From the NCBI GenBank assembly GCA_030063045.1, contig JAQSEB010000005.1, positions 1,067,001-1,131,000 of the forward strand: DNA of 64,000 bases, in the 5' to 3' direction. Made by a program: the position numbers and the translations under genes. Below, one piece after another: positions 40,881-64,000 of the stretch. Origin of the DNA: Pratylenchus scribneri (lineage: Eukaryota > Nematoda > Chromadorea > Rhabditida > Pratylenchidae). The first letter of the stretch is position 1; every line of letters begins with the position of its first letter. The notes under the pieces were generated by a model. That model saw only the letters and a list, made by a program, of their open reading frames with translations, was not told the origin of the DNA and ran no database searches.

Positions 40881-42233
40881 AATCGTCATATCAAATAATT
40901 CATATCGATAAATATTGTGCGCGATTTGAAGAAGATGATTGTAAAAACCGGAAATGCCAATCTGCAGCTTACAATTTGGGGCGATAGATGATTAATTGGT
41001 CAACATTAACAGTCGGTTATATATCAATATTCTTTTCAATGCTCCAACGATCAAATAAAGAAAAGCATGATTTAAAAGATTGGAAAATTAAGAAATAAAT
41101 CCAATTGAAATAAAATATATAATATCAAATATGTAAATTCATTAAGACTATCCAAGGAATTAATAATTGTGTTTTTTATGTTTCAAGAAATTATTGGATT
41201 ATTTTAATGGAACAAAGATGTTTTTAATGCAGCAAAATATTTTAGAAAGTTGCAGTCCATTTCATTAAAGTGCTTATCTCAAAAAGAAAAACAATTTAGG
41301 AAGATGATTTTTTATTAGAAAGTACAAAATTTTCTTTAAAAAAATCGATCTATAGAAAATTTAAAAATATTTTGCAGATTTTTTCCTTGATATTTTGAAG
41401 TTTATTAAACCCAAAGTTACGGGCAATATTTTTAAAATAAGAAGCTTAAATTCAAGGCTTTCCAATTTTGATCGTTGGCATTTGGCATTTACCGCAAGCC
41501 TCTTAAAGGCTAAAAGTTTGAGAAAAAATTTAATGAAATAACAAATAAGAAAATGCAAAAATCAGAATAAATTTTTTGCACTAAAATTGGCAATAAAAAA
41601 TGTAATAAATATTTTACTTTTAATATTTTTTTTTAAAATTTCATTTAATGAAAAAATTTTCCAAGTTGTTTTATTTTTATTTTTAAATTAAATATTGGTT
41701 TTTCTGTCTGGGGGTCACTCATCTTTTTTCAGACTTGGCTTGTGACAGTCCTTGGCCAGATTTACCCCCCCCCCCCCCAGACCCCAATTTTATATTTATT
41801 TGATTTATAATTAGTTTAAATTTTAATTTCTTTATTACTTTATTAATTTTAATTTTAAATTTCTTAATTTCATCATTAGTTTAATTTTTAATTTATTTAT
41901 TAATTTAATTTTTTATTTCTTAATTTATTCATTAGTTTAAAATTTAATTTCTAAATTTATTTATTAGTTTAAAATTTAATTTCTTGATTTCTTCATCAAT
42001 TTAAATTTTAATTTCTAAATTTATTCATTAGTTTAAAATTTTTATTTTCTTAATTTATTAATTTTAAATAGAATAATAATTTTCTTTCATATACATAAAA
42101 ATTTTATCATAATTAAATTTTATTTTAAAATTAATTTTAAATTAATTTTAGATTAATTTTTTTTGTTTTTATATTATTAATTAATTTAAATTTCATTCTT
42201 TTAAAATAGAAACTTTATAAAATTAAATATTAC

Positions 42234-42289
42234 GATGATTTCTCTTCGACTTGCTGCTTCAATTCACTTGGTTGCGCTCTTGAAGGCAT
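42234..42289 (-). pseudogene. Exon-like segment of the array, donor intact
   Basis: The minus strand reads MPSRAQPSELKQQVEEKSS without a stop, up to ATC|GTAATATTTAATTT. The upstream acceptor is not clear. No family recognised. Confidence 0.4.
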
Positions 42290-44026
42290 GTATTAATTAT
42301 TTATTAATTATACTTAAATTTACATTATAATATAATTTTAGAATGGATTAAAATTTTTTACAAATTTAATACATTATTATACATATTTTTATTCTTATCT
42401 TTTTAATCTCATTATACATTCTTCAAATGAAATTTATTAATTTTTAAATTAATTTACTATATATTATTCAATTTTTTTCTATTTTATCGATATATATATT
42501 TTTTAATTTAATTTCTTCTTTAATTTTTAGCGTTTATTTTATTTTCTATAATAAAATAGAAAATTTCTAAAATTAAATTACTCCATTTGCATCCTCATCC
42601 TCTCGATCGGTATCTCCATTACGGTTTCTTGAAATGTTCCATTATAATTAAAAATTTTTTATTATATTAAATAAATAAATATATGAAAATTTAAAAATAA
42701 ATTTTTTTTGTTTTTTAAATAAAATTAATTATTTATTCAGCTCGATTTGTGCCTGATCTTGCCAGAACAGTATTCTTTATCAATGTGAGATTTTATTAAT
42801 TAATTTTTTATTACAATTAAATAATTTATTTATTGTAAATTTCTAAATTATTCGTTAGTTAATCTTATTTTTATCGATATATATATTCAATAATGGATTT
42901 AAACTTTTACAATTTTAATCGATTATTATTTTTATTTTAATTCCATTATATCTTCTTTTCAACTATTAATTAAATAATATATACTCCAAAAATTTCAAAA
43001 TTTTTTAATTTTTAAGATTGATTTGATATTCAATTTTAATATTAGATTAAATAAATTCTTATATGAAAATTTATTTATAAATTATTTTATAAAATAATAT
43101 TTTCCTTCAAGTACTATTTCTTCAATTATTAATTTATCGATTTAATTGTAATTTAAATTTTTCAGCCTTATTATATGTAAATTTACAAAAAATCTCGAAT
43201 AATTTGAAATAAATAACCATGTCCAAGCATGGCATTCAATTGACAGTAATTGCACTTTTTGTCAGAGCTTGCGCTCAAATATCTCATTATCATTATATTT
43301 ATACTAATTAAATTACTACAATAAATAATTTAATTTTTTTGCTAATTTCTAATTTATAATAAATTAATCATATTCTGTATAATAGTAAGAATGAATTTAA
43401 AATTTTTACATTTTTTATATTTATTTTTATTCTTATTATTTTAAAATCAATGTATCTTCTTTTCAAATCTTAACTTGAAGATATATTCAATTTTTTAATT
43501 TAAATTATTAATTAGTTTTTAAGGTTAATAATTTTATTATTCTATTGATATGAAAATTTTTAAATAATTTAATTTTTAATTGAAAAAATATAAATTTTTA
43601 AAAAGTTATAATTTTTTTTCATTAATTTTTGGTTTTTTTAAAACTTTTTACATCAAATTCATAGTTATTAAATTTATATTTTAAAATTTCGTCGCTTTTT
43701 GCATTTGTCCATGGTAGGATAATGCAATTTTATATATTATTTTATTTATTTTCATTCTTTATTCTTATTATTTTAATGAATCTATTATGTCTTCTTTTTC
43801 AAATTTAAATTTTATCATTAAATAATTATCCGAATTTTTCAAATGTATTCAATTTTAAAAATTAATTTCCTACATAAATTATTCGATTATTCAATTTTAG
43901 CGATATATTAAATAAATTTTTATTGAAAACTTATTTATAAATTAATTATTTTTTTCGTTTTTTTACATTACAAATTAATTTTAATTTCATTTTTTCTTAA
44001 TTAAAAAATGTATTAAATCAAATTAC

Positions 44027-44088
44027 ACGAAGACGTGAGCCAGGATGCTGCTCTTGACATACACCACATTTGTTGAATCCGCGTGAGT
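44027..44088 (-). pseudogene. Exon-like segment of the array, paired with the one near 59350
   Basis: The minus strand contains ACGCGGATTCAACAAATG and ends CTTCGT|GTAATTTGATTT. The segment near 59340-59395 keeps ACGAGGATACAGCAAATG and GGCTCACGTCATCC, so the two derive from one ancestral exon despite indels between them. Confidence 0.45.
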
Positions 44089-46242
44089 AAAATATATTAT
44101 ATTAATTAATTTTTCACAGCAATAAAATAATTTAATTTTTTGTTAATTTTTAATTTAATTATTAATCTTTTTATTTATCTATATTTTTTAATAGTTAAAA
44201 ATGGATTTAAAATTTTTTTTACAATTTTAATCCATTATTACATTCATTTTTATTCTTTCTACTTATTATTTTAATCTCATTATCATTATGCCTTCTTTTC
44301 AAATCATAATTTTATTATAAATATTATTTATTCAATTTGACTTCAAATTATTTATTTTCATTTTTATTAATTATATAATGAAATTAGGCATTTTTTAAAT
44401 TTAAATTTTAACAAAAAATATCTTAAAAGTATTCAATTTTTTAAATTTATTTCCTCTATAAAATTCAATTTATCGATATGGATGATAATTTGAAGTTAAT
44501 TTTGGGCAACTTTCAGATGGCATTCCTTTTATCAGCCGATATGGTGAATCAATTACATATATTATATAAATAATAAAATTTATTTTTATATATAATTGTT
44601 CCAAATTTGAATTTTCATAGAAATAATATTTTATTAAAAAATTTAAAATTAGATATATCTTACTCAATTTTTTCAATTTATTAAATAAATTTATTTAAAA
44701 AAATTTATTTATAAATAATTATTTTGTTTTTTATATTATAAATTAATTTTAATTCCATCTTTTAAAAAATAGAAAATTTATTAAATTAAATTATGGTCCT
44801 GTTGTAGATTTTCCTCTAATTTCGTTCTTATGCCTTCGACACTCATATTATAAATTAATTATGATTAATTTTTCATTGCAATTAAAAAATTTTTAATGAA
44901 TTTAATTTTTTTTTTGGAATTTTTATCTATTATTTTATTTATTTTCATTTTTATTATTATAATGCGATTATGTCTTCTTTAAGATGTGAATTTTCTTTTA
45001 TATAATATATCTTACTATATTAATGTATCATTTTTATAATTAATTTCCTACTATTTATCCAATTTATCAAAGTTATATTTCAAAAAATATTTATTAATAT
45101 TTTTTTGCATTATAAATTAAATTTCATCTTTAAAATAGATTTATAAAATTTATAAATGATGCGATGTTGATGCTCCTATTCCTATCTACGACGCGAATCT
45201 TCTTCTTTTCGTTTGTCGGTTTAATATATATTAATTAATAAATAATTTTTAATGGATTTATTAGATTTTTTACAATTTTAATCCATTATCATATTTTTCA
45301 TTTTTTATTCTTATTATTTTAATTTCAATAAATTTTCTTTTCAAATCTTAATTAATTTATCCTAATATCATTAGTTTTCAAGGAATATCAATTATTTTAT
45401 TCTTTCATTTACATAAAATTTTATATATAATTAATTTTTATTTGATAATTTATTTAAAAATAGATTAATTTTTGTTCTTCGACTCTCTATTTCTTTCGAG
45501 CTATTCTTTGCTCTTGGCTTCTACAGAATTTTTATTAAGTATTTTCAATCAATTAAATAATTTAATTTTTATTAAATTCTACATCCATCTTTTTTCTTTA
45601 TCTTATAATAAGAATGGATCTTATTTTTTTTAAATTTTAATCCCAAATTATATTTATTTTCATTATTTTAATCATTTTAATTTCATTATAACTTCCTTTT
45701 AAAATATTTTAATTATTTAATATGACAAATCAAACAATTTTTTTAATTTATTGTTTAATAGATTTTAGGGGTTTTAATTATTTTATTTATTCTTTAATGA
45801 CGCGAATCGACAGTAGTGTTTTCTTTGCATTTTATTATGGCATCGCCATGACGGTTTTTATTTTATTTCATTTAATTTTACTAAATTTTTCTCAAATATA
45901 AATAAAATTATAATTAATTTTTTACTAGAATCATGGAATTTTAAAAAAGAATTAGAATTTTTTACAATTTTAAAACAATAATTTTTATATTTTTATTCTT
46001 TTTTCTCACTTTTAATTATAATGTCATTATGTCCTTTTTAAGATGTTATTTTTTATAAATAATATCATAATATAACTAAAAATATTAAAATAATAAAATT
46101 AATTTGTTATTCATCATTATCATTATGACTTGTTAAAATTTTCTTTTATTACCTATATTTATCTGAATATCTCACTCAAAAATATTCAAATTAATAATTT
46201 AATTTAATCTTTAAAATGAAAAATTTATAAAATTAAATTATC

Positions 46243-46325
46243 TCGTTTAGAGCTTCTCTTTTTCTCCATCTGGGACATTGCTCATGCTCACTTAGAGGAC
46301 TTTGCTCACTTCGAGCTCCAGCATT
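46243..46325 (-). pseudogene. Exon-like segment of the array, open over its length
   Basis: The minus strand reads RSEQSPLSEHEQCPRWRKRE and continues ALNE without a stop. The donor position has GATAATTTAATTT in place of GTAATTTAATTT, so the splice site looks lost. A diverged relative with two stops is at about 59945-59990. Confidence 0.45.
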
Positions 46326-47179
46326 AAATATTACTAAATAATTTTTCACTATAATTAAATAATTTTATTTTTAATTCAAATTTATAATAATTAATCATTT
46401 TATTTTTCTATATAAAGTGTTAAGAATGGATATAAAATTTTTAAATTTTTAATCTATCATTATATTTATTTTCTTTCATTTTTTTATTCTTATTATTTTA
46501 ATTCCAGCCTTCATTTCTAATATTGTTTTTTTTATCGCAATATCTCAGGAACCCTGAAATATTCAATTTTTTAAATTAATTTGATATATTATTCAATAAT
46601 TTAATTTTATCAATATATTAAATAATTTTGTTAGATGGTTTGTTCCAATGGGCCCTACCCGCATCCTTTATAGAAAATACCGCTCTTTGGCTTAGTTTTG
46701 AATTTTTATTATACATAAATTAATTTTCACAGCAACTAAATATTTCAATTTTTTAAATTCTAATTTATAATCATTAATCATAATGTTTTAATCTTTATAT
46801 AATATTTAATAATTGATTAAAAATATTTTACAATTTTATCCATTATTATATTTTTATTTTTTTTTATTTTGATTCCATTAGAGCTTCTTTTAAAAATTTA
46901 TTCTATATTATAAAAATATTTCAAAACTCAGAAGTATTCAATTTTTTTAATTAATTTACTATATCTTATTCAATTTTATCGATTATTATATAGATTTAGT
47001 TAAAATTCTTCATTTGTTGTTAGGGATTTTTAATTACATTTTCAGCGAATTCATAATAATCATATTTATATTTGAAAATTTATTCCTGAATAATTATTTA
47101 TTTATTTTTTAATTAAAAATTAATTTTTCTATTTAGATACTTTTATAAAATGATTCGCATTTCTCTCGTCTCTCATGAG

Positions 47180-47647
47180 CAGAGATGAGTTTCGGGCCGC
47201 CTTTTGCCGGCCCGGCCCGGCCCGGGCCGACCCTCGAACGGCCCGGCCCGGCCCGTACAGTAATAGGGCCCAAAATTTTCGGCCCGGCCCGGCCCGGGCC
47301 GGCCCGGGCTTTGGTTACAGTATTTTTTCCTCAAAATTTTAAAATTTTTTTTTAAAAATGAAAAATTTAAAAAAAATTTTCAAGTAAAAAAATTTTAAAT
47401 GAAGAAAAATAGTAAATATTATTCCCTACAAAAATATAAATTCATTTTTTTTACAAAAATTATAGTCAAATTTATTTATTTTTCTCAAAAATCATATGCT
47501 TCGGGCCCGTCGGGCCGGCCCGGGCCGACCGAGAATCGGCCCGGCCCGGCCCGTACAGTAACCGGGCCGAAAAATATCGGCCCGGCCCGGCCCAGGCCGG
47601 GCCGGGCCAGGGCCGGCCCGGGCCGGGCCGGGCCCAACTCATCTCTG
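47180..47647. mobile_element. GC-rich hAT-like MITE in the array, exact target duplication CTCATGAG
   Basis: A 468-bp element with ends CAGAGATGAGTT and AACTCATCTCTG, flanked by CTCATGAG at 47172-47179 and 47648-47655. The duplication fits the hAT preference nTnnnnAn. Two arms, each a dense GGCCCGGCCC repeat carrying CCCGTACAGTAA, are arranged as direct copies around an A+T-rich centre. It interrupts one GC-richer segment of the array. A 135-codon frame through it is not coding. Confidence 0.92.
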
Positions 47648-48192
47648 CTCATGAGCACGCATTCGTATTTTTTCGCATGCCTTATTTATTATTTTATATT
47701 ATTTAATTTCTCACCTCAATTATATTATTTAATTTTTTTATTAATTTCAAATTTCAAATCATTAATCATATTATTTTTCTCTACAAGTTGTTTAAAATGT
47801 ATTTGAAATTATTATTTTTTCTCAAATAAATCTTTCCTCGAAAGCAAAGAATTCGATGTTGACAATTTTATTACTTTTAATTCTTTATTCGAAAAAGAAT
47901 TAATTTAAATTTTTACAATTTTAATGCATATTATTTTTATTTTCATTTTTTATTCTTATTATTTTAATTTATTTATGCTTTCAAATCAAATTTTAAAATA
48001 TTTAATTATCATTATACTTCTAATCTGTTCAATTTTTAAAATTATTTTTATATTATTTAATTATTCAATTTTATCAATAAATCAAATAAATTTATATTTA
48101 AAAATTTATTTATAGATTATTATTTTCTTGCTTTTTTATTGTAGAAAATTAATTTCAATTTTATTTTTATAAAATAGAAATTTTACATAATT

Positions 48193-48290
48193 AAATTATT
48201 TAGCGTCTGCTTCTATGGCCTATTGCTGTCGTTCTCGTACTTCATGCCATCTTTCTCTTTCTGCATACTTTCGTTATTCTTCGGTGTTTT
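48193..48290 (-). pseudogene. Exon-like segment of the array with in-frame stops
   Basis: The minus strand reads TEE, a stop, then RKYAERERWHEVRERQQ, another stop, then AIEADA. The TEE-x-RK start aligns with SEENRR and SEESRR in other units. Both splice sites look mutated. Confidence 0.5.
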
Positions 48291-51200
48291 ATTAATATAT
48301 TAAATTTGTTTTTCGCTAAAATTAAATAATTTTATTTTTTGTTTAATTCTATTTTATAATCATATCAAATCAAATTTTTTATTTAAATCAAATAGTTAAA
48401 ATGGATTTAAATTTTTTTTACAATTTTAATCCAATATTATATTTATTTGCATTCTTTATTTTTATTATTTTGATTCCATAATGCCTTCTTAACAAATATT
48501 TATTTAATTATTTTCACAATATTTCAAAATCCTAATCCCATTAAAATATTCAATTTATAAAATTAAATTGCTCTATTATTTAATTTATCGACATATTAAA
48601 TAATTGAATCTTATTAAAATTCATTAAATTTTAAAATTTTTAAGTTAATAATTTTTATTTTTTCATTTATATATTCATAGATAATTAAATTTAAAATAAA
48701 TTTATTTTCATTATTTATTTTATAAATAAATAATTTATAAAATTAAATAATCCGCCACTTCTCCTAAGCTTATTGTTTCAATTCATTGGCTCATTAATTA
48801 ATTTTACATCAAAATTAAAAAAATTTTATATTGGAATTTAATTTTTTTACAATTTTATTCAAATATATATTAAATTTTATTCTTATCAATTAAATGCATT
48901 TATGCCTTCATGATTTTATTATTAAATAATTATCCTGATATTTATCAAAAATATTTAATTTTTAAATTAATTTGCTATATTATTCAATTATATAATTTTA
49001 ACAATATTTAAAAATAAATTTATAAATCTAAATTTATTTAGAAATAGATATTTTAATTTAAATTCTTTTCGGTAGTTACGGCTGAATATGTCAAGTTACA
49101 GCCAGTGGCGAACTGCGCTCACTAAATAAAAATATTTAGATTTATATTTATAAATTTTCAGTTGGTTCAATTTCTTTAAATTTAAAATAAATTTGTATAT
49201 TAATTAATTCATTTTTTACAATTTAATTCCTTTACAAATTAAATCCATTATATAATTATTTTCATTCTTTTTCCTTATTATTTTATTTCCATATATTTAT
49301 TTTTTCAAATTTAATTTTATTATTTAATTATCCTAATATTTCAAATTTATTCAATTTTTAAAATTAGTTTGTTTATTTTTCAATTATTCATTTTTATCAA
49401 TAAATATATACTTTGATAAAATAGAATATTTATAAAATTAAATGATCCTTTAAGCATCGGTCATATTTACATTAAAACAAATCGTCATGGCATTAATCTT
49501 TTATAAAATTAATTATTATTAATTTTTTAAAACAATTAAATAATTATAAAAAATTTGATTTAAAATTTTTAAAATTTTAATCCATTATAAAATTTATTTT
49601 TCTACTTTATTCATATTATTTAATAAGTAATTTTATTATTAATTAATTTTTCAATACAATTAAAAAATTTTGAATTATTTTTTTAAAATTTTAATCCATT
49701 ATTATATTTATTTTCATTCTTTTTTTTATCATTTTAATATCAATATACCTTCGTTTACAAAATTTAAAATTTTTACATTTTTATTTAATTATTAAATTTA
49801 TTTTCTTTTTTTATTCTTATTATTTTAACCATTTTTGCCTTTTCAATAGTTATTTACTTATAAAAAATAACCGAATACATCTTCAATTTTTTAAATTAAT
49901 TTATCAATATATTAATTCAATTTATATTTGAAAATATATTTAAAAATAAATTTTTTTTCTTTTCTTACTATAAAATTATTTTTCATTAATTTTTTTAAAT
50001 ATATAATTTATAAAATTAAATGATTCAGTATTTACATTTCCAAAAATAATGAAAAAAAAGAATGCTCAAAATGTAGCCCAATTATTTCGGCATAAAATTT
50101 ATTTACTTTTTTCTATTATTTTGGATCCATCAAATCTTCATTCCCACCTTCAAGGAAGACCATGCTGCCATTCAGCAGCAAAAGAAAAAAAATTAAACTA
50201 CACATAAACAGAAGTTATCGATTATTATTATTATATTTATGTATATATTTTATTCATTTTATATTACTTCAATTATGCGTTATGCCTTAATTTTCAAAAA
50301 TTATATCAATAGTATTCAAATTTTTAAATTAGTTATATTATATATTACAAATTTTTTTCGATTTTATATAAATTAAACTTTTACTTGAAAATTTTTTAGA
50401 TTTTTATTTTCATTTTTTATTTTTATTTTTTTATTCAATTATGCTTTCACTTCCAATTTTAATTTTTTTAATTATCCTAATAAGCCAAAGTTAATTCATT
50501 TTTTAAATTAATTTAATATATCTTATTATATTATTCAATTTTATCAATGTATTAAATGTTTTATGATATTCTAATGGATATTTTCATTTTTAACAATTCG
50601 CGATATATTTCAATTTCTTTTCAATATTATTTCTGTGTAATTGTTTAAATGAACATGAAATGATAATAAAATCTTTTATAAAAATAATTTTGTAATTATA
50701 TAAATAATTACATTTATATTCCAAGCATCAATTTTATTAAGTAAGTTTTCCTTAAAGTGTTACTCTAAAATAAGAAGAATGGATTCATAGTTGATTCATA
50801 TTACTATTATACAATATTTTTTGTTTTTTATTTACATCAATTTCTTCTATTGCGTTGATCGTAATATTCATTTCCTTCTTATTTATTCTTCTTTTTTCAA
50901 AAAGTAATTTTATTTTTTCTTTATTTTTAATTTATAATCAATATTTGACTTATTTTTATTGATATTTTGATATTAATTTTATTTTAAATATTTTTTTTTA
51001 ATTTTTTATACGGGTATTACGGATATAATTTTTAATTTTTAATAATTTCATTTATAGGAAATATCAAAAATTACTTTAATGGTAAATATTAGAATTTATA
51101 TTACAATTTTCTTTTTATAATTATGCATTTTTATTTTTATTTGGTAAATATATTTCCAATTCCTATGTTCTCATTCTTTAAATTTTGAATATTATATTAT

Positions 51201-53632
51201 CTATTTATCACATATACTCATAAATTTTTCTAGTTCGTGTACAAAATTTGAAATGAGTTCGCTGTGCCTTTTTTTCTTCAGCAGAGGAAAATAATTGGAT
51301 TTTATAATAAATTTAAATGAATGAGCGACTTTCAATTTTTAATTTTGAAATGTGATATAATATAAAATAATGAAATAATAAAATATTTTTATATAAATAA
51401 TATTGTTGCTCTCAAAATTTTATATAAAATTAAATATTTAATTTTATAATTTAACATCGATTTTGACGAAATTAAATTTATTTATTAAAATATGATACAT
51501 GAAAATTTAATTTCAATTAGGATAATCTTTTAATTTATTAATTTCAAAATATTTAATTTTATGTTGAAATTTTTTGAATTCTATTTATTATATAAAAAAT
51601 TAATGAATTTTTTCACCTGCTGAATTTATTTAGATAAACTAAATTATTATGTTTTGAGTATATGCATTTCTTGCAATGAAGATAATAGAAAATTCAATTA
51701 TTATATATATATTTTTCATATTATAATTATTCTCTTAATTGATTATATAATTTTTTTTTTCATAAAAAATTATTCTATTAATTTTTTATAATCAAAATGA
51801 TTATTAAAAAATTTTAATCCATTTTTTTCGATAGAGGAATTTTTTTATGGAATTGTAGGCTTTAATGAAATAAATTAATTATTTATACAATAAAAATATT
51901 TTTTTTATTTTCTAGTTTCTATTCATATTATTTATCAATATAAATAGTTTATAATGGATTTAAAATTTTGACAATTTTAATCCATAATTACACATATTTT
52001 TCAAAATTTATTCTTTTGCTTGTAATGTTATTAAATTTTTTCATTAGTTTTTTAGAGATAATATATATTTTATTTTTCATATATATAAAAATCCACAATT
52101 AATTTTATTTTTATATGTAAATATATATTTGATCTCTGCATTATGTCGAACCTTCGGCACTCTTATTTTATATCAATTATAATTAATTTTTAACGACAAT
52201 TAAGCAATATTAAATGTATTTTAAAATTTTTTACAATTTTATTCTATTATATCGAACCCAAATCCATGAAAATCACAGGTACCGCAGTCTAAATTTTCAT
52301 AAAAATTTCAAAGCTTATTAAGAGAATATATATACATTCTATATCTTTGGAATTGCAATCTAAAACAAAACAATTAAAATGCAATTTAACCTATTATTAT
52401 ATTTATTTATATCCTTTATTCTTATTATTTTAATTCCTTTATGCCTTAATTTTCAAAAGTTATATCAATTTTATTCAAATTTTTAAATTAAATATATAAA
52501 TATAACTCCATTTTTCAATTTAATTTTTCAAGAAATTAAATTTATATTTGAAAATTTTTAGATATTTATTTTCATATTATAATTAAGATTAAATTTAAAT
52601 TTTTTAAAATTTTAATCCATTATATTCTTTTTCATTCTTTTACCTTCTTTTTCAAAGGTTAATTTATTATAAATAATTATCTAATTTGACAAAGTTCTCA
52701 TTTTTTTTATTTATTTTTTAATAGTTGTTAGGTTTAATAATTTTTATTTTTTCTTTCACAAAAAAAAATATTTGAAAATTATTTTGATCAATTTAAATTT
52801 TTCAATTTATTAATTTATATTAACATTTATTCATAGAGCATAGTTTAAATTTAAATTTTTATATATAATATATAAAAATGATTTTTAATTATTTTTACAA
52901 TTTGGCGGATCGTACAATCATTTATCTTTTTGCATACCATGGCAAAAAAACCTAAAATTCGCGTTACTTATCCATGGATGTATATATTTCAATCTTTATT
53001 CTTATGTATGATTTTAATTGAATTATGCTTTCATTTCAATTTTTAATTTTATTATTTTTTCAGTTTCCAAAAAAAATTCTTATGCTTTTTTTTTGCTTCA
53101 ATTCGTTGATAATTTTCTTGATTCGGATATAATTCTTTTAATAATCTAAAGTTGTCTGCTCTAAATAATCTTCAGCTCTTTCAGTTTAAATTTTTATTCC
53201 TTAATTCCTTAATAATTTAAATTTCTTTATTTATTTTTTAGTTTAAATTTTAATTTTAAATTCTTAAATACATAATTAGTTACATTTTTTATTTTTTTTA
53301 TCATAATCTAATAGTTTAAATGTAAGTGCATAAATGCCATGTACCTAAAATGGCAATTTTCTTCTATAAATATAATTTTGTAATATTTATTTTTAAATTA
53401 TTTTAATATAAAAATTACATTTATATTCCAGACATTTAGTTATATCGATTAAATAAATTTAAATTAGTCTTAGATGTTTGGTGTTATTAATTAATTAATT
53501 TTTACATCTATATAAAAATTCATAGAAAATTAAATTTATTTTTGAAAATTTCCTTCAAATAAATTACTTTTTTTTTTTGTTTTTTACTATAAATTAATTT
53601 TAATTTCATTTTTTTATATTAAATTAAATTTC

Positions 53633-53682
53633 GTCCTCTTTCTCGTTTTTACTTCTTCTTTACGCCGACGGTTTTCCTCGGA
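53633..53682 (-). pseudogene. Exon-like segment of the array, SEENRRRKEE motif
   Basis: The minus strand reads SEENRRRKEEVKTRKR, directly after AATATATAATAAAAAT (AG lost) and before GAAATTTAATTT (GT lost). One of the clearest coding-like segments. Confidence 0.5.
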
Positions 53683-55512
53683 ATTTTTATTATATATTTA
53701 TTGTTTATTTAATCTTAAAATTTGAATTCCATTATGCTTTCTTTTCAATTGTTTATTTTATTCTAAATAATTATCCAATTATCTCAGAAGCATATAATTT
53801 TTGAAGTAATTCACTATATTCAATTTAATATTTTAAATAATTTTTATATGAAAATTTTTACAATTTTATTCCATTTTTATTTTCATTTTCAAACTTCATT
53901 CATACTTATTATAAAAATTTTCTTATGCATTCTTTTAAGATTTTAATTTTCTCACAAATATAACAGAATATATCAAAGTATTTTTCCGTAAAATTAATTA
54001 AATATATATTATTCACTTATTCAATATTATCAATCAATATTGTAAATAAATTTATATTTGAAAATTTATATATAAATTTATTAATTTTTTCATTTTACAA
54101 TAAAACTAAATTTCCATTTATTTTTAAATAAAATAGAAAATTTTATAAAATAAAATATTTTTTGCTACTTCAATTCTCTCAAGCACGTTGAATTTGTTTG
54201 ATTTTTGCATTTAGTACCGAACCCGATTGATAGGGCTACAGACGCTTTCGCCAGGTTTATTATTTAATAATTATAATTATTAAAATTAAACAAAATTATA
54301 ATGGGATTAAAATTATTTTTACAATTTCCATTATTATATTTATTTTTATTTTTCATTTAAATCTTAATTTTATCAAAAATTATCTAACTTACTCAAAAGT
54401 TTTCTATTTTTTAATTTATTATTCAATTTTTTCGATATATTATAAAAATTTTTATTTGAAAATTTATTTTGTTTTTTTAAATTATTATTTTAATTCCATT
54501 TAAAAAATAGAAAATTTTATTAAATTAAGTCACTTTGCGTCTGGCAAATTCTAAGTAAATTGTTAATCATATTATTTATCTATATATATATATATAAATA
54601 GTAAAGATTGGATTTAAAATTTTTAAAATTTTAATCCCTTATTATATTTATTTTCATTCTATATATTTATTATTTTTTTGATATATTAATGTTGCTTCGT
54701 CGATCACGTTTCTATTCCTAATTGACTGGATTATCGTTTAATTTATCGGCTTTTTTATTAATTATTAAATATTAATTATAATAAATTTTTCATTATATTT
54801 AAATAATTTTATAATTTATTAAAATTTTTTACAATTTTTATCTATTATTTTATTAATTTCATTTTTCATTCTTAACATTTTATGACATAACGGTTTCTTT
54901 TTAATATTATTCCATTTTATCAATATTATAAATAAATTTTTATTTAAAAATTTACTTAAAAATAATTATTTTATTGTTTTTTACAATAAAATTAATTTTT
55001 GCTGAATAAACTATCGAATTTCGCATATTATTAATTAAGTAAAACGTAAACGAACATATTATCCAAGGTCAAAATAATAGTATCGTCATTCTCATCACCA
55101 TCATTTGCACAAACATACTTTTTCATTTTATCTTTAATAAATAAGATAATTTATAAAATTAAAATATATGGCATCGACGATGAAATTTCTGTTCATATCT
55201 TGCTAGACGATTGTTCGATACTTTGACATTTTTATAAATTCTTATATATTAATTATAATTAATTTCTTTTTAATTAAATATTTTTTAATTAATTAAAATT
55301 TCTTATTATTCCATTATTATAAGTATTTTCATTCTTTCTTCTTGTTATATTAATCTCATTATACCTTCTTTTCTAATGTTAATTTTCTAATAAATAATTA
55401 TCCTTTTATCTGAAAATTTTTCAAGTTTTTAAATTTTATTTACTATTATATTAATTCATTTATTCAATTTATAGTAAATAAGTCTATATTTGAAAATTTA
55501 AAAAATTAAATT

Positions 55513-55580
55513 CTGTCGACATCTTAGCACGACGGCGTTGATTCTCTTCGTAAGTTTGACGATGTAACTCGCTATTCGTC
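55513..55580 (-). pseudogene. Exon-like segment of the array, YEENQRRR motif
   Basis: The minus strand is open over 22 codons: TNSELHRQTYEENQRRRAKM and STE. The flanks ATAATAAAC and GAATTTAATTTT show the expected positions of AG and GT, each with a substitution. Confidence 0.5.
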
Positions 55581-57949
55581 AGTTTATTATATATATTATT
55601 TATTCAATAGTATTAAATAATTTTATAATGAATTAAAATTTTTTTACATTTTTCATTTATTATTGTACATTTCTTTTTAGTAATTTAATGCAATTTAGCC
55701 ATTTATCGATAAAAAAATTAGTATTTTTTTGTTTTTTATAATAAAATTAATTTTATTTTCATATTTTATAAAATTGAAAATTTATTAAATTAATTCAATT
55801 TCGCCAACTTCTTTGGATCAATGATTAGCAAAAGTGAATTTATCTTAAATATTAATTAATTTCAATATAATTTAAATTTAATTTTTAATTTCAAATTTAT
55901 AATCTTGCACTTCCTTTATTGCAGTACGACCCATGGTGTATTTGACAAGATTTATTCACTCCATTTCCATTACAATCAAAATTTTTAATATTATATATTA
56001 CTCAATATTTTCAATTTTATCGATATTTTCATATAAATTAAATTTATATTTGAAATTTTTTTAGATTTAAATTTTTACTATTTATTCTTATTATTTTACA
56101 AAAATTATGCTTTCTTTCAAATTTTTATTTTAGTTTATTTAATCCAACTTTCACTAATTTCTTTTCTGGAATAACCTTGGCGCTTGGTCAAAGGTTTCTT
56201 TTAATTAATTTTCAGTACAATTAAATTATTTAATTCTTTAGATTTCTAATTTATTATAAATTAATCATTTTCTATATAAAAAGAATGGATTTAAAATATT
56301 TAAAATTTTAAATATTATTCAATTTTATCAATATATTAAATAGATATTTTTTAAATTTAAATTCTTCATTAGTTTTTTATTTATATTTTTATAATTTATT
56401 TTTTCATTTTAATAAAAATTCATAAAAAAAATATATCCTAAAATTTATTAATTATAGAAAATCTATTAAATTTAATTACCACTGCCACTGCCACATCAGA
56501 AGGCATTCCAAATCCAATTGGGCAAATTTATTTATAAATAAAATTTTTTTATTTTTATACTACAAATTTTTATTTTAATTTCATTTTCTATAACATAGAA
56601 AATTTTAAATTTTAGCACTATCGAGGTAAAGAATTAGTCCATTTGATTATTTTAGAGATGATAGGTTAGATTGGCTTTTAATTTAATTATTATTCCTTCT
56701 AAAAATAAATATAAAATTATATATAATGAATTTTTAAATTTATTTATTTATAATTTGATATGGATTAATTAATTTAGAGTTATAATTAACGATTTCATAA
56801 TATTTAAATAATTAAATAAAAAATTTTATCTACATTGACTTGTGTAAATAATTTGTCTAAATTTTTAAAAATAATTAATTATTATATTTAATGAATTTAT
56901 TTTAAAATTAAACATTTTTTTGTGTTAAATTTTTTTAATTATAAAATTTCAATATCTTATTGTTGTCGATCAAATTTATTTTCCAATATTGCCAAACGAT
57001 TGCAGACTTCTACATTTCCATTTCAATGATCTTCCTTTTGCCAAAAAGCTAAAATATTATTATTTATAATATTTAAATTTTTTTTACTATGTTTGTTAAA
57101 GTCTGCATCAAATAAATTGGTAGTTGACAGTTTGAAACTGTTAATAGTTGACTGTCTTGAAGAGGAAGAATTTATTTTTTTATTTGTTTATGAATTTCGA
57201 TTTCATATCATTGATAATTTTAATTTTCTGCTTATTTTTACTATATTCTATGAAATTATTTTATATATTAAAAATTATTATTTTATGGATTTTTTTCATA
57301 TTTTTAAGTCCATATTATTTTTTTAGTTATTTCGCGACATAACATAGATATTATTTTTTTCGAAGTATTATTTGAATTTATCTTTTGATTTTTATTATTT
57401 TATTTATCTTTTTGAAAATGATGATTTATTATTCAAAATTTTAACCAATGAAAAAATTTAGTTCAACAAAAGGCGATGATTATTTAATTGGAATTCATTT
57501 AAAATAATTATTTTAATTATTTTGAAAATTATGATGCTCTCACTTTCGAAATTTATTATAATATCGAAAAAATTTCTAATATTTTTTTAAATTTTTTTAA
57601 ATAAATTCAAAACTAAAAGTATTTAATATAATAATAGCTTTATGCTAGTTCTTAATTCAATTATTATATTTAATTACATTTCAAGAGACTTTGGGTTATT
57701 AAATCACACTTTACATTAATTTTTATTTCCTTTTAAAAAGTTTTATTTTTTAATACAAAATTTTAAGTAATTAATAATTATAGAACATTTGTTAAAATAA
57801 TCATTTAAATGGATTTCAAAAAAATTTATAAAATATTCCCTAGTTTTATAGAATTTATTTATTAATATTAAATTTTTTTGTTTTGTTTTATACAATAAAA
57901 TTAATTTTAATTTCATTTTTTTCAAATAGAAAATTTTAAATTAAATTAC

Positions 57950-58036
57950 GCAGTCGTTTAAAGGATCATCAAAGTAGCCTCGATATATGTCCAGGCTTTT
58001 CTACAGTTTCCTCCATTTCAAATAGCAATATACAGG
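57950..58036 (-). pseudogene. Exon-like segment of the array, sister of 58877-58964
   Basis: Ends GACTGC|GTAATTTAATTT. It shares a TTTGAAATGGAGGAAACTG start and the GACTGC end with 58877-58964, but carries a stop (LL then TGA) in the shared frame. Confidence 0.5.
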
Positions 58037-58876
58037 TTTTAAATTTTTAATATATTATTTAATTTTTCAATAAATTAAATAATTTTTTACTTGTTTATAG
58101 TAAATAATATTTTTCAATACAATTAAATAATTTAATTTTTTTGTTAATTTCTAATTTATTATTCATATTATTTATCTAATAATGATTAAGAATGGGTTTG
58201 AAATTTTTTAATCCATTATTATATTTATTTTCAATCTTTATACTTATTATTTTAATCTTATTATATATTCTTTTCAAATCGTAATTTAAATATTCAATTT
58301 TCTAAATTAATTTGCTTTATTATTCAATTTTGTTAATTATTAAATAGTTTAATTTAATTTAAACTTTTAGTAAATAATTATTTTATTCGTTCATTTATAT
58401 AAAAATTCATAGATAATTAAATTTTATTTGAAAATTTATTTATTAAATTAATTATTTTCACATACATAACTCATAATAGCGAATTAGAATGGCAATTGTC
58501 TCTGTTGTATTATTCATATTTTCCTTGAAAAATATTATAAAATTTAAATTAATTTTTCATTTAAATTAAATTATTTCATTTTTTCCTTATTTATAGTAGT
58601 TAAATAATGGATCTAAAATTTTTTAATCTATTATTAATTTTATTCATTTTCATTCTTTATCCGTATTATTTTAATCTCATTATGCCTTCTTTCTCGAATT
58701 TTAATTTTATTATTATCACATAGGGTTCCTAAAATTTAATACAATTTTGCTTTTTTTTATATTTAAATTTTATTAATAAAAATTTATTTAGAAATTTTTT
58801 TGTTTTTTTATAGTACAAATAAAATTAATTTTATTTTCATCTATTTTTTAAATAGAAAATTTTAAAATAAAATTAC

Positions 58877-58964
58877 GCAGTCGAATGGACCACCATATCA
58901 ACCTCGATAGCTCCATAGTTTTCTTCAGTTTCCTCCCTTTCAAAAAACAATATTAGAGTTTTGA
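58877..58964 (-). pseudogene. Exon-like segment of the array, TEENYGAIEVD motif
   Basis: The minus strand reads FEREETEENYGAIEVDMVVH without a stop up to GACTGC|GTAATTTTATTT. The donor GT is intact. Confidence 0.5.
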
Positions 58965-59629
58965 ATTTTTATTATATATTGATTAATTTTTCAAAACATT
59001 AAATAATTTTTTATTTATTTAGAATTCTTAAATAATGTTTTAAAATTTTTTACAATTTTAATCCATTATCATATTTATTTTCATTTTTTATTCTTATTAT
59101 TTTAATTTCATTAAATTTTCATTTCAAATATTAATTTTTTTTATTACATATCCTAAAATCTCAAAAGTATTTAATTTTTTAAAATTATTTTCATATATAT
59201 TATTCAATTTTATCAAAAAAATCATGTAAATTTATATTTTAAAATTTATTTATAAATTAATTTTTTTTGCTTTTTTAAATTAAAAGTTAATTTTAATTTC
59301 ATCTTTTTTCTAAAATAGAAAAATTATTATATCAATTTAAAGGATGACGTGAGCCGGTATATTCTACTGTCATCCGCATTTGCTGTATCCTCGTTTATAA
59401 AATTTATTATATTAATTAATTTACACAGCCATAAAATAATTTATTTTTTTGTTAATTTCTAATTTAATCATTAAACATATTATTTATCTAATAATAGTAA
59501 AGAATGGGTTTAAAATTTTTTACATTTTAATCCATTTTATTTTCATTCTTTATTCGTATTATTTTCTATAATAAAATTAATTTTAATCTCATCTTTTTCT
59601 TAAAATAGAAAATTTTTTAAATAAATTAC

Positions 59630-59694
59630 GCTCCTTTTCCAAATTACGATCTCGATCGTCGATTCGTTTTTCCGCCCGTCTGCTCTCTTCTGAT
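59630..59694 (-). pseudogene. Exon-like segment of the array with both splice sites intact
   Basis: ATAATAAAAAG|A then SEESRRAEKRIDDRDRNLEK and E, then C|GTAATTTATTT. At 65 nt it is the best single candidate for a working micro-exon. Confidence 0.55.
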
Positions 59695-60618
59695 CTTTTT
59701 ATTATATTTCAATTTTTCATAAAAATTAAATAATTTAATTTTTTTAAATTTCTTATTTATAATTATTAACATATTTTTATATATAATTAAGAATGGATTT
59801 TAAAATTTCTAAAATTTTAATTCATTATTAAATTTTTTTTCATTCTTTTTTTTTATTAATTTAATCTAATTATTTCTTCTTCTTCATGTATTAATTAAAT
59901 TAAATATTTAACACAAAAATGTCAATTTTATCAATTATTAAATGTTACTCCTTAGCAGCTACTGTGCTACTCACTTCAAGTTTCAGCATTATATATTAAA
60001 TAATTTTTAACTACAATTAAATAATTTTATAATGGATTGAAAATTTTTTACAATTTTAATCAATTTTTATATTCATTAACATTCTTTATTCTTACTTATT
60101 AGTATAGGGTCAATTTGCCTTCAATTTAGATTTTATTTCTTATTAATAATTTCCGAATAATAGCCACAATATTAATTTTTTAATAATTTGATATAATTTA
60201 ATCTTATTAATATTAAATAAATCTATATTTGATAATTTATATCAAAAATTATTATTTTTTTAAATTATATATTATTAATTTATTAATTAATTTTTCATTA
60301 CAATTAAATAATTCTATAATAGATTAAATTTTTTACAATTTTAGTCCATTACATATTAATTTCATTCTTAATTCTTATCAATTTAATTCAATTATGCTTT
60401 CATTCTAAATCTTAATTTTATTTTATTTAATTATCCTAATATTTCAAAAGAATTAAATTTTTAAATTAATTTTTTATATATTATTCAATTATTCAATATT
60501 ATCAATGTATTAAATAAATTTATATTTGAAAAATTATCTATAAATATATTTTTGAATTTTACAATATAATACATTTAAACTTCCATCATTTATCAAATAT
60601 AAAATTTTAAAAATTGCT

Positions 60619-60741
60619 TTATCGGCGCAGTTCCTCTGAATGACGTATGTCATCGGCACTCCGCTTACATCCGCGGTAAGTCCAACCGTTCTTCTGGTTT
60701 GACAAAGCATCTTCTATAAGTCCCTTTATAGCGACGCTTTT
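60619..60741 (-). pseudogene. Longest open segment of the array (40 codons)
   Basis: After the acceptor TATATAAG the minus strand runs open from KSVAIKGLIEDALSNQKN through RGCKRSADDIRHSEELRR to TAA. It contains SEELRR, matching the core of other units. CGGAT|GTAAGC inside it is a good splice donor, so it may be two segments. Confidence 0.5.
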
Positions 60742-62035
60742 CTTATATATTAATTATAATAATTTTACACTAAAATGAAATAATTTTATAATGTATTTAT
60801 TTTTTTACAATTTTTATCCATTTTTTTATTCTTTTTATTTCAACTCAATTTTATCCTTATATTTCAAGTGCTTCCAATTTTTAAATTAATTTGCTAAATA
60901 TTATTCCATTTTATCAATATATTTACTAAAATTAAATGTGAAAAATTATATACAATAAATTTCATTTTTTTACATAAAAAATTAATTTTAATTTAATCTT
61001 TTATAAAATATAAAATTTTATAAAATTAATTTTAACATAGTTCTAATATCTAATTCACTGCAATAATTAATTTTCAATATTTATTTTCATTTTATTCTTA
61101 TTAATGCAATTGCAATGCTTTTTATACTTTCTTTTCATATGTAAATTTTAATATAAATAAATAATCCAAATATGTCAAAAATATTCATATTTTTTTACAA
61201 TTTTAATTCATTATCATATTTTCATTTAATTATGCTAGAGGCCTCCTTTTCTAGATGATAATTTTATTAAAAATATTTCAAAAGTATTTAATTTTTTAAA
61301 TTATTTTTCCAAATATTATTCATTTATTCAAATTTATCAATGTATTTCTTAATTTTAATATTTTGTATTTTTTTAATGGGAAAAAATATAGGGCAAATTT
61401 ATTTTAATATATAAATTTTATAAATTAATTATGCTCTTTTCAAATATTAATTTTATTTTATTTAGTCCAACCATCCCCTACTTCCTCTTTAGATTAATCT
61501 TAGAGCTCGGATGAAGATTTCATTTTTATTTTATATTAATTAATTTTCAGTATAATTAAATAATTTAATCAGCAGCCTTTTTTGCCGCTACGCTACAAAA
61601 TCGGCATTCCACAGAATTTTTATTATAATGGATTTAAAATATTTTTACGATTTTAATCCATTATTTAATTTATTTTTATTTTTTATTCTTATTATTTTAT
61701 GGCAATTATGCTTTTTTTCAATTGATATTTTCTTATAAATAATATCCGAATATCTCTTCAATTTTTTAAAATTAATTTTATATATTATTTAATTATTTAA
61801 TTTTATCAATATATTAAATAAATTTAAATTTGAAAATTTATTTAGAAATAAATTTTTTTCGTTTTGATAATGCCTACACTCTTATTATATGGGATCATCC
61901 AGAATATGGCGCTTAAAAAGCCAATAGCTTCATCAAGAAATGGAATATAATGCATCGTATATTGTATTGTTATTTTCTTGTTTTTCATTATAAAAAATTT
62001 TTTTATAAAATAGTAAATTTATAAAATTTAATTAC

Positions 62036-62091
62036 AGGATGATGAGCGGCCTTCTTTCCTTATTAGGTTGACGCTGATGTTCATCGTCATT
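62036..62091 (-). pseudogene. Exon-like segment of the array with both splice sites intact
   Basis: TATATAATAAG|NDDEHQRQPNKERRPLII, then CCT|GTAATTAAATTT; 56 nt, no stop. Confidence 0.5.
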
Positions 62092-62996
62092 CTTATTATA
62101 TATTTATTAATTAATTTAATTAATTTTTCACTTAAATTAAATAAAATTATTTGAAAATTTATTTATTACTAAATTATTTTTTTACAATTAAAATTATTTT
62201 TAATTCCAACTTTTATAATCAATCATATTTTTATCAATATTTAATAGTTAAGAATGGATTTAAAATTTGTTAAAAATTTTAAATCAAATATTCTATTTTT
62301 TAATTTTCTTTCTTTATTTTTTTTTAAGATTTTAATGTCATATTGTTATCTTTTCAAACTTAATTCTATTATGAATAATTCTACAATATTTCCAAAGAAT
62401 TCAATTTATTAAATTAAATTGCTTTATTATTTAATTTTATCGATATATTAAATAATTAAATTTTATTTAAATTTTTCATTAGTTTTTAGGGTTAATAATT
62501 TTATTTTTCATTTACATACAAATTCATAGATATTTAAACATGCATTTAAAATTTTTTAATTTTCATTCTTTAATAAATAAAATTTTTAAAATTATTAAAT
62601 GATTCCTCCAGTTGTATATAAATCTTTCCACATATCACATTCCATTCCAACTCGACATAGCATTATGTCAAACAACTTAATTTATATATTTTCATATATT
62701 TATATTAATTACATTACTAAAATTAAATAATTTAATTTTTTGCTAATTTCTAATTTATAAATCATTAATCATTATTTATCTAAATTTCTTCATTTATTCA
62801 TTAGTTTAAATTTTAATTTCTTAATTTATTCTTCATTAATTTTTAAGGATAATAATTTTATTATCTCTTTTAAATCAACATTCATAGAAATTAAATTTAT
62901 ATTTGAAAATTTATTTCTAAATAATTGTTTATCTTTTTTTGAATTATAAATTAATTTCAATTTTTAATCTCAAAATAGAAATTTTATAAAATTAAC

Positions 62997-63051
62997 GATC
63001 ATTAATGTACATTGCGTCGATATTCCGCAGTCTGGTGACTTCTGCGGCGCT
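62997..63051 (-). pseudogene. Exon-like segment of the array with both splice sites intact
   Basis: ATATAATAAG|, then RRRSHQTAEYRRNVH followed by TAA in the charged frame; another frame reads SAAEVTRLRNIDAMYINDR through to GATC|GTTAATTTT. Confidence 0.4.
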
Positions 63052-63234
63052 CTTATTATATTTTAATTTATTATATTTATTTAATACTTTCTATTTATTA
63101 TTTTAATATTATTTTACCTTCTTTTCAATTGTAAATTTTATCATATATAACTATCCAAATAATACTTATTTTTAACTATTTTTATTAAAAAAAAAATATT
63201 TTAATTTCGCAATAAATTTAATATTTTATAATTT

Positions 63235-63570
63235 TTAGAATTTTATTTATATTTTTCATTAGGTTGCCAGGCCGCATTATTGCTATTTATACCATCTTTT
63301 AGGTTTTAAGGAGCCAAGGCAGTGGCTATTTTTTATTAATTTTAAATTTGTTTTATTTCTAAAATTTTTTATTATCTTCAAATAAAATTTAAATAATATT
63401 TATTTTTATCTATTTTTATTAAAAAATATTTTAATTTCACAATATATTTTATAATTTTTAGAATTTTATTTTATATTTTTCATTAGGTTGCCAGGCCGCA
63501 TGATTGCTATTTATACCACCTTTTAGATTTTAAGGAGCCATGGCAGTGGCTAATTTTGTATTTATTTATT
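63235..63570. repeat. Direct repeat of about 95 bp, 235 bp apart
   Basis: CATTAGGTTGCCAGGCCGCA at 63259 recurs at 63481. Each copy continues through TTGCTATTTATACCA and TTTTAAGGAGCCA to GGCAGTGGCTA. This is the least diverged pair in the array, so it is a recent duplication. Confidence 0.85.
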
Positions 63571-64000
63571 CAGAATTGAGTTGAGATAATTTTACTTGTT
63601 ATTATAAAATATATTTTTTTATTTTTATTTTTAAAAATTTTCATATTTCCATACTCAATTTTTTGGTTCACAAAATTCTTTTAACATCTGGCTTATAATT
63701 GTTTAAAATTTAATTTCTTAATTTATTTATTAGTTTAAAATTTGATTTCTTAATTTATTTATTAATTTAAATTATAATTTCTTAATTTATTCATAATAAA
63801 TAGAGTAATAATTTTCTTTCATATACACAAAAATTTATAATTATATTTTATTTTAAAATTAATTTAAAATTAATTTTTTCCTTTGTTTTTACATTATAAA
63901 TTAATTATAATTTCATTTTTAAAAAAATCATTATAAAATTAAATAACACGATATTCGAATCTTTATTTAATTTTCCAATATTATGTTCAATTTTTAAATT

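Follow-up and report, generated by a model that had tools for sequence, protein, structure and literature searches.

In the sections of the respective papers on which we draw, the exons of the schistosome micro-exon genes (MEGs) are symmetrical and their products have signal peptides (PMC4350168), the internal exons of the aphid bicycle genes nearly all start in phase 2 and a megacycle gene contains more than 100 microexons (PMC9168663), and the HYP effectors of cyst nematodes, which are single-gene loci, vary in frame within one exon (PMC11228951). Small self-cleaving ribozymes of animals are described, in the section used of PMC7761336, as mostly linked to retroelements. Here we report on a tandem array of A+T-rich units in the nematode Pratylenchus scribneri, which lies in a stretch of 64,000 nucleotides (C5:1067001-1131000, referred to below as the window, with positions counted from its first letter), and on its relatives in the genome, which was searched as 227,248,964 bases in 276 contigs. 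A first-pass annotation of the window had interpreted the array as an exon-plus-intron unit amplified in tandem on the minus strand. Judged from sequence comparison, the array is probably one of a family of bounded, transcription-unit-like loci, in which decaying exon units are closed by a constrained, twister-like 3' end. Neither these arrays nor twister ribozymes in Pratylenchus are described among the literature matches listed.

Each unit of the array is directional and consists of about 400 bp of A+T-rich backbone and an insert, mostly of 40-100 bp, of ordinary base composition. The features that define the array and its 3' end are the following.

41456-41705, minus strand: downstream flank, common to other loci at about 70-75% identity (BLAST, alignment)
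41706-41786, minus strand: twister-like ribozyme element at the 3' end of the array, with stem arms at 41706-41714 and about 41778-41786 and the predicted core between them
41803-42063, no strand assigned: 32-bp A+T-rich satellite between the ribozyme element and the first unit (Tandem Repeats Finder)
42069-64000, minus strand, and on past the window to about C5:1136049: array of backbone units with inserts (nhmmer profile matches, composition)
63701-63791: second block of the 32-bp A+T-rich satellite (Tandem Repeats Finder)

By two-state composition segmentation, 56 GC-richer segments of 17-184 bp were obtained between 42001 and 64000. The backbone profile, an iterated nhmmer model of 399 positions, matched 265 pieces, which are distributed over six arrays and lie without exception on one strand; 65 of them come from the window's array and its extension. 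As the profile was derived from these same arrays, its controls matter; there were no matches in the reversed arrays and none in window 1-41000. When the genome was scanned at up to 3 mismatches, a backbone 31-mer gave 96 matches and the reversed pattern 1, while a 33-mer gave 63 and its control 0. The unit is absent from the output of Tandem Repeats Finder. The insert site is the joint between unit end and unit start, or in some units a place after about model position 115-140 instead. Because homologous stretches of different arrays have inserts in common, and in view of the 31-mer counts, the inserts are neither placed at random in a generic satellite nor mutually unrelated. The first-pass annotation was thus right that the backbone-plus-insert array is real and not a plain satellite. 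Its extent of 41800-64000 needs correction at both ends, since the short satellite occupies the first part and the units continue beyond the window, and its fixed insert position applies to the joints and not to the units with the internal site. The conserved GC-rich element at the 3' end had escaped it.

This 3' element is a GC-rich stretch of about 80 bp past the last unit and the short satellite, and BLAST found 15 matches to it in the genome. Array units occur within 1.5 kb upstream and on the same strand in 14 of the 15 element loci, and downstream or on the other strand in none of the 15; the exception is the C166 locus, where other DNA is inserted upstream. With up to 3 mismatches allowed, a 23-mer of the element was found at 15 places and its control at none; 13 of these places match exactly, and the remaining two have 1 and 3 mismatches. 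A 20-mer scan gave 11 exact matches, plus 3 matches with a single mismatch and 6 with three mismatches. The element set found by BLAST is biased to conserved copies; the mismatch scans, which are able to show copies with one to three internal changes, revealed no such copies. The 46-bp core was compared in the ten uninterrupted loci of the 15. In the 45 pairs 64 of 2070 sites differ, or 16 of 1950 (0.8%) when CpG sites are left aside, and 3 of the 46 positions are variable; the sequences flanking the element 35-60 bp from the core differ by 28.2% and 24.9% in the same loci. Judged by these comparisons, the strongly constrained part of the locus is the putative ribozyme. No viral contig matched in a search for a viral source of the element, and a tRNA search gave no hit.

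Some further observations concern individual copies. The interruptions of the core that are present in L044, L045, L046 and L047 are segments with inverted ends, apparently at two different places. Beside the C111 element, L036:1936-2060 and 2804-2909 are long, near-identical inverted repeats with weak matches to microRNA models, which probably form a palindromic mobile element. A C-terminal Lon protease domain is encoded at L038:2490-2858 (minus strand), some 1 kb downstream of the C111 element.

The element was compared with the Rfam model RF03160, twister-P1, whose gathering cut-off is 67.2 bits; matches were reported at a permissive threshold. The window copy matched model positions 1-68 at 41712-41768 on the minus strand (25.2 bits, E 0.0019 in 251 bp), and the C166 copy matched the same positions with 33.2 bits (E 7.2e-6 in 181 bp, 0.0017 in 43 kb and 0.0021 genome-wide). 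Stronger matches occur elsewhere in the genome, at C33:3554447-3554555 (59.8 bits), C103:273322-273431 (55.1 bits) and C211:114508-114616 (53.0 bits). The model also matches, more weakly, at C25, C47 and C82, the element 20-mer having three mismatches there, and further twister matches lie on C44 and C137. Since weak matches near E 10 also occur in 10 of 14 control genomes, low E-values alone count. A second model, R1, was built from six element copies with a hand-drawn structure. It matched the window at 41711-41768 with 75.5 bits and gave 11 distinct places at E <1e-9 in 33 sources (274162 bases), none of them within arrays.

The letters of the element agree with this assignment in several respects. 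The full-length model match contains the core letters AA, GC, GUC-CAAGCC-G, AAA-G and GAG-GA, with one model C of the T1 loop being R in these elements. The L1/L4 core nucleotides are present together with the adenine after the predicted cut, and AAATC occurs in all 15 loci. In all 15, too, the P2 arms AUCU/AGAU are complementary, as is the middle pair of pseudoknot T1, which is G-C in 9 loci and A-U in 6. Two of the three variable core positions are the partners of this middle T1 pair and the third lies in a one-base P4 bulge of the hand-drawn structure, a pattern of change consistent with the predicted twister fold. In the consensus fold of the ten copies, which vary little among themselves, 1 of 17 pairs has a two-sided change. 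In the part of PMC5408937 that we cite, twister ribozymes have two pseudoknots and a conserved adenine after the cut, and cleave without P1; as the base before the cut is described there as less conserved, either G or U before the adenine is consistent with a twister.

Several results weigh against the ribozyme assignment. The cut-off of 67.2 bits was reached by no element copy and by no other genome match (61 of 69240 candidates scored), and the window copy was absent from this genome-wide list; at the gathering cut-off, Rfam gave nothing in the window, L029, L030 or L035. The L033 copy scored only 17.4 bits, and in one run the twister model matched 4 of 14 loci at E <=10. The base before the predicted cut is G instead of U in 14 of the 15 copies; the window copy does have U, but its loop following P2 contains one additional G and it has 14 G in a row. 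A single event may account for the T1 change, and its two bases are in CpG context. Inspection by eye shows the core broken up by inserted DNA in L044-L047, four of the 15 loci, and another sequence in place of the outer stem arm in L043. As the copies score below the cut-off, we file the element as twister-like and not as a curated member of the family.

The other end of the loci is marked by a common 5' module, for which the 221-bp stretch immediately upstream of the short C19 array served as query and 22 genomic matches were obtained. When the two match tables were paired by hand, 13 of the 15 3' elements had a 5' module upstream on the same strand and contig, with outer spans of 1.6-44.9 kb; the elements at C5:1382023 and C111:88265 had none. 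The window's pair consists of the 5' module at C5:1138710-1138914 and the 3' element at C5:1108685-1108793, 30 kb apart. With one start module, one strand and one end, the loci behave as transcription units. It counts against this description that 9 of the 22 5' modules are without a matched 3' element downstream, some of them with long arrays (C36, C82, C216).

Our proposal is that such a locus would run from the common 5' module through a variable number of tandem units to a single twister-like self-cleaving RNA at the 3' end. The minus strand of the window would be transcribed and the ribozyme would cut the RNA on its own 5' side, so that the RNA of the array would have a defined end and need no polyadenylation; the cut RNA may have a use, or the ribozyme may merely limit expression. 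The further step, that this is a ribozyme-bounded locus of a new kind whose A+T-rich repeat RNAs start at the 5' module and are released by a twister-class ribozyme, is put forward tentatively.

The same ends could also belong to a mobile element family, retrozyme-like or RTE-derived and non-autonomous, that carries a twister ribozyme and in which internal tandem repeats have grown. There are about 20 dispersed loci with common ends, and the sections used of two papers report that RTE retrotransposons have truncated but competent twisters conserved at their 5' ends (PMC7761336) and that metazoan retrozymes consist of tandem repeats, about 300 bp long and low in GC, which contain hammerhead ribozymes (PMC7229834). 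However, each locus has one ribozyme and not one per unit, strong R1 matches being confined to array ends in the sources searched, and Pfam detected no reverse transcriptase in ten open reading frames (ORFs) chosen near elements. Copies that differ by 25-40% in their flanks have an identical core, unlike neutral decay after transposition, and several loci have longer flanks in common, as in duplicated chromosome segments. We consider this origin unlikely, although it is the strongest of the alternatives.

What the units themselves once were is indicated by their inserts, in which the coding signal is weak. Fully open frames were found on the sense strand in 189 of 248 inserts (173.8 +- 5.9 in dinucleotide shuffles) and on the antisense strand in 210 (213.0 in shuffles). 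The period-3 log-likelihood of the minus-strand inserts is 508, compared with 329-352 in 8 shuffled sets, and codons for glutamate (E), glutamine (Q) and arginine (R) are in excess, their synonyms moving together. In paralogous insert pairs, of which 18 of 26 could be framed, changes at codon positions 1, 2 and 3 number 52/394, 30/397 and 48/397. From the period-3 signal, the E/Q/R excess, the open frames and the low position-2 change, the inserts look like former coding exons on which some constraint acted while the copies diverged and which are now mostly fossil.

A six-frame model put 208 of the 248 inserts in one orientation, and its favoured codon TTC is GAA on the array's sense strand. 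Wobble coherence is 0.666 on the sense strand and 0.481 on the opposite one, with permuted codes as high in 204 of 576 cases. On these grounds coding on the opposite strand was rejected, though stops count against that decision: the opposite-strand reading has fewer of them (84 in 3105 codons). Counted by register, the sense strand has 157 stops where 185 are expected in the called register, with 137 and 260 in the other two registers. The idea that each insert is a mini-gene with its own short ORF was also rejected, ATG near the insert start showing no enrichment in the coding frame (29 times, compared with 36 and 25 in the other two frames, in 128 inserts). No intact parent gene was found: DNA and protein searches with an open C36 insert led only to array-bearing contigs, a search with a C5 insert matched C5 and C138 only, and Pfam gave no family for either insert. 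Examples of inserts in and beyond the window are listed below (those in the window by segmentation and frame test).

42233-42290, minus strand: insert with an E/K/Q-rich sense frame (K, lysine) and a stop at the backbone border
53632-53681, minus strand: insert with an E/K/R-rich open sense frame
59629-59695, minus strand: insert with an E/R-rich open sense frame
63262-63326, minus strand: first of four near-identical 65-bp inserts
63486-63550, minus strand: second of the four
L009:3675-3739 and L009:3900-3964: remaining two of the four

The four 65-bp inserts have the same internal stop in each one's best frame and show recent duplication indifferent to coding. More generally, 76 of 128 confidently framed inserts reach a stop before their end, and among the stops in paired copies 18 are unique to one copy and 10 are in both. 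In 11 paired stretches, picked by hand from 87 BLAST pairs, non-CpG divergence is 196/1566 (12.5%) in the inserts and 1019/10644 (9.6%) in the backbone. Backbone positions with a G or C consensus are kept less well than A or T ones (mean 0.81), so a GC-richer insert is expected to differ somewhat more even without selection. The first-pass view that exons diverged while introns kept their shape therefore finds no support in these close copies. The inserts appear to diverge about as fast as the backbone; the units, once multiplied by tandem duplication, would now drift nearly neutrally, so that most inserts would be fossil exons. One result runs counter to this. Codon position 2 changes less than expected for neutral sequence, an unevenness equalled in 16 of 2000 simulations under neutrality (run on 10 of the 11 hand-picked stretches, with the 18 framed insert pairs), so that some inserts may have been, or may be, coding.

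The history we propose for the array interior is that it was once a multi-exon gene or part of one, in which an exon-intron unit was multiplied by tandem duplication. Each unit would now be an A+T-rich spacer with what is left of a small coding exon rich in E, Q and R, drifting nearly neutrally, with the coding sense mostly lost and the RNA end retained.

A working micro-exon gene family of the schistosome MEG or aphid bicycle type would instead have the inserts spliced into long secreted or coiled-coil proteins. The period-3 signal, the slightly greater openness of sense inserts compared with shuffles and the reduced change at position 2 agree with it, as does a ratio of nonsynonymous to synonymous differences (pN/pS) of 0.58 in paired copies. 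In the short loci L044-L046, AG precedes the insert in 13 of 16 anchored cases, the other border being mostly AAC before ATTAATTTT and not GT. Working GT-AG splice sites around each insert were nevertheless not found: a GT occupies the position expected of a donor in 33 of 95 anchored inserts, no more commonly in intact-looking ones, and in a second anchoring (n=70) GT occurred in 7 and AG and GT together in 3. Insert lengths modulo 3 are flat in that set (26/25/19), which does not agree with symmetrical exons, and confident frames reach the border in phases 25/18/13 (n=56) and not in a constant one. Together with the stops described above, this makes a working family improbable. The tandem amplification of an exon-plus-intron unit on the minus strand, as first annotated, is supported by the open inserts and their periodicity, while the notion of a micro-exon family kept or diversified is not.

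We give no better chance to a decayed gene family and nothing more, in which the conserved 3' element would be either a terminal coding exon or regulatory DNA. The scores below the Rfam cut-off are in its favour, and some copies of the element, read as coding sequence, give a short open frame with a stop. But element frames differ between subfamilies through 1-base indels, for which reason a terminal coding exon was rejected; synonymous sites are invariant, the few variable core positions being the T1 pair and the P4 bulge; and the twister match covers the full model. Finally, a plain A+T-rich satellite with chance GC islands accords with the A+T content and with a backbone palindrome that lacks covariation, but 265 unit pieces on one strand with none in controls, inserts common to homologous stretches and a fixed 3' end leave it hardly any probability. 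Structural selection on that palindrome was itself rejected, pairing being the same as in shuffles (79.5% of paired cells in both).

Further arrays are located at C5:1356-1382 kb, C138:142-212 kb and C138:418-457 kb. The C5 and C138 arrays have the same order and orientation, with common stretches 77-88% identical, which suggests that a single region is present in two versions, on C5 and on C138. Within the window's array, G+C per 1-kb interval is 13.1-19.2%, except for 33.6% at 47001-48000, where a GC-rich element is inserted; it occupies 47152-47681 as two GC-rich segments with CCGGG-type repeats and inverted ends (CATGAGCAGAGATGAG) and is probably a mobile element. To the left of the array, the plus-strand ORFs at 6500-6913, 12063-12383 and 31900-32289 comprise ORFs with spectrin repeats (E 5.3e-19, 1.3e-22) and an ORF whose EF-hand match is slightly below its cut-off; they are probably parts of a single gene of spectrin type, which lies upstream of the array and on the opposite strand. 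Minisatellites were found at 5-892 (60 bp), 17769-18759 (22 bp) and 25930-27433 (25 bp).

If our interpretation is true, selection keeps the RNA cut while the internal coding units are free to multiply and decay, and the array, which measures about 1.6 to 45 kb from 5' module to ribozyme, can change in size harmlessly. The resulting RNA, not being polyadenylated, would be missed by standard RNA sequencing. Twister-like ribozymes would then appear in a new setting, in animal genomes where the host roles of small self-cleaving ribozymes are unclear, and the near-frozen core beside quarter-diverged sequence offers a case in which selection on ribozyme function can be tested directly in an animal. 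The arrays would also show how an exon-plus-intron unit swells to tens of kb and loses its coding sense, and they are a warning that arrays of this kind in a crop parasite should not be annotated as micro-exon genes.

With regard to the described systems, as far as the cited sections go, the array resembles the schistosome MEGs in its many short coding segments between introns, but its insert lengths are flat modulo 3, and no signal-peptide exon turned up, no systematic search for one having been made. It has internal tandem duplication in common with the aphid bicycle and megacycle genes, from which it differs in its mixed phases and lost splice sites. The HYP effectors likewise have repetitive variable segments in a plant-parasitic nematode; here, in contrast, the variation is spread over many decayed units, with A+T-rich backbone between them, and is mostly out of frame. 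The 3' element is like twister type P1 (RF03160) in its full-length model match, core letters, P2 arms, T1 partners and adenine after the cut, and unlike it in scoring 17.4-33.2 bits against 67.2, in a P3 hairpin of only a few bases, in the G before the cut in most copies, and in being a single element that closes a long A+T-rich array. In the metazoan non-long-terminal-repeat retrozymes, as the section used of PMC7229834 has it, the hammerhead sits inside the monomer, whereas here the monomers carry exon remnants and a single twister-like element ends the array.

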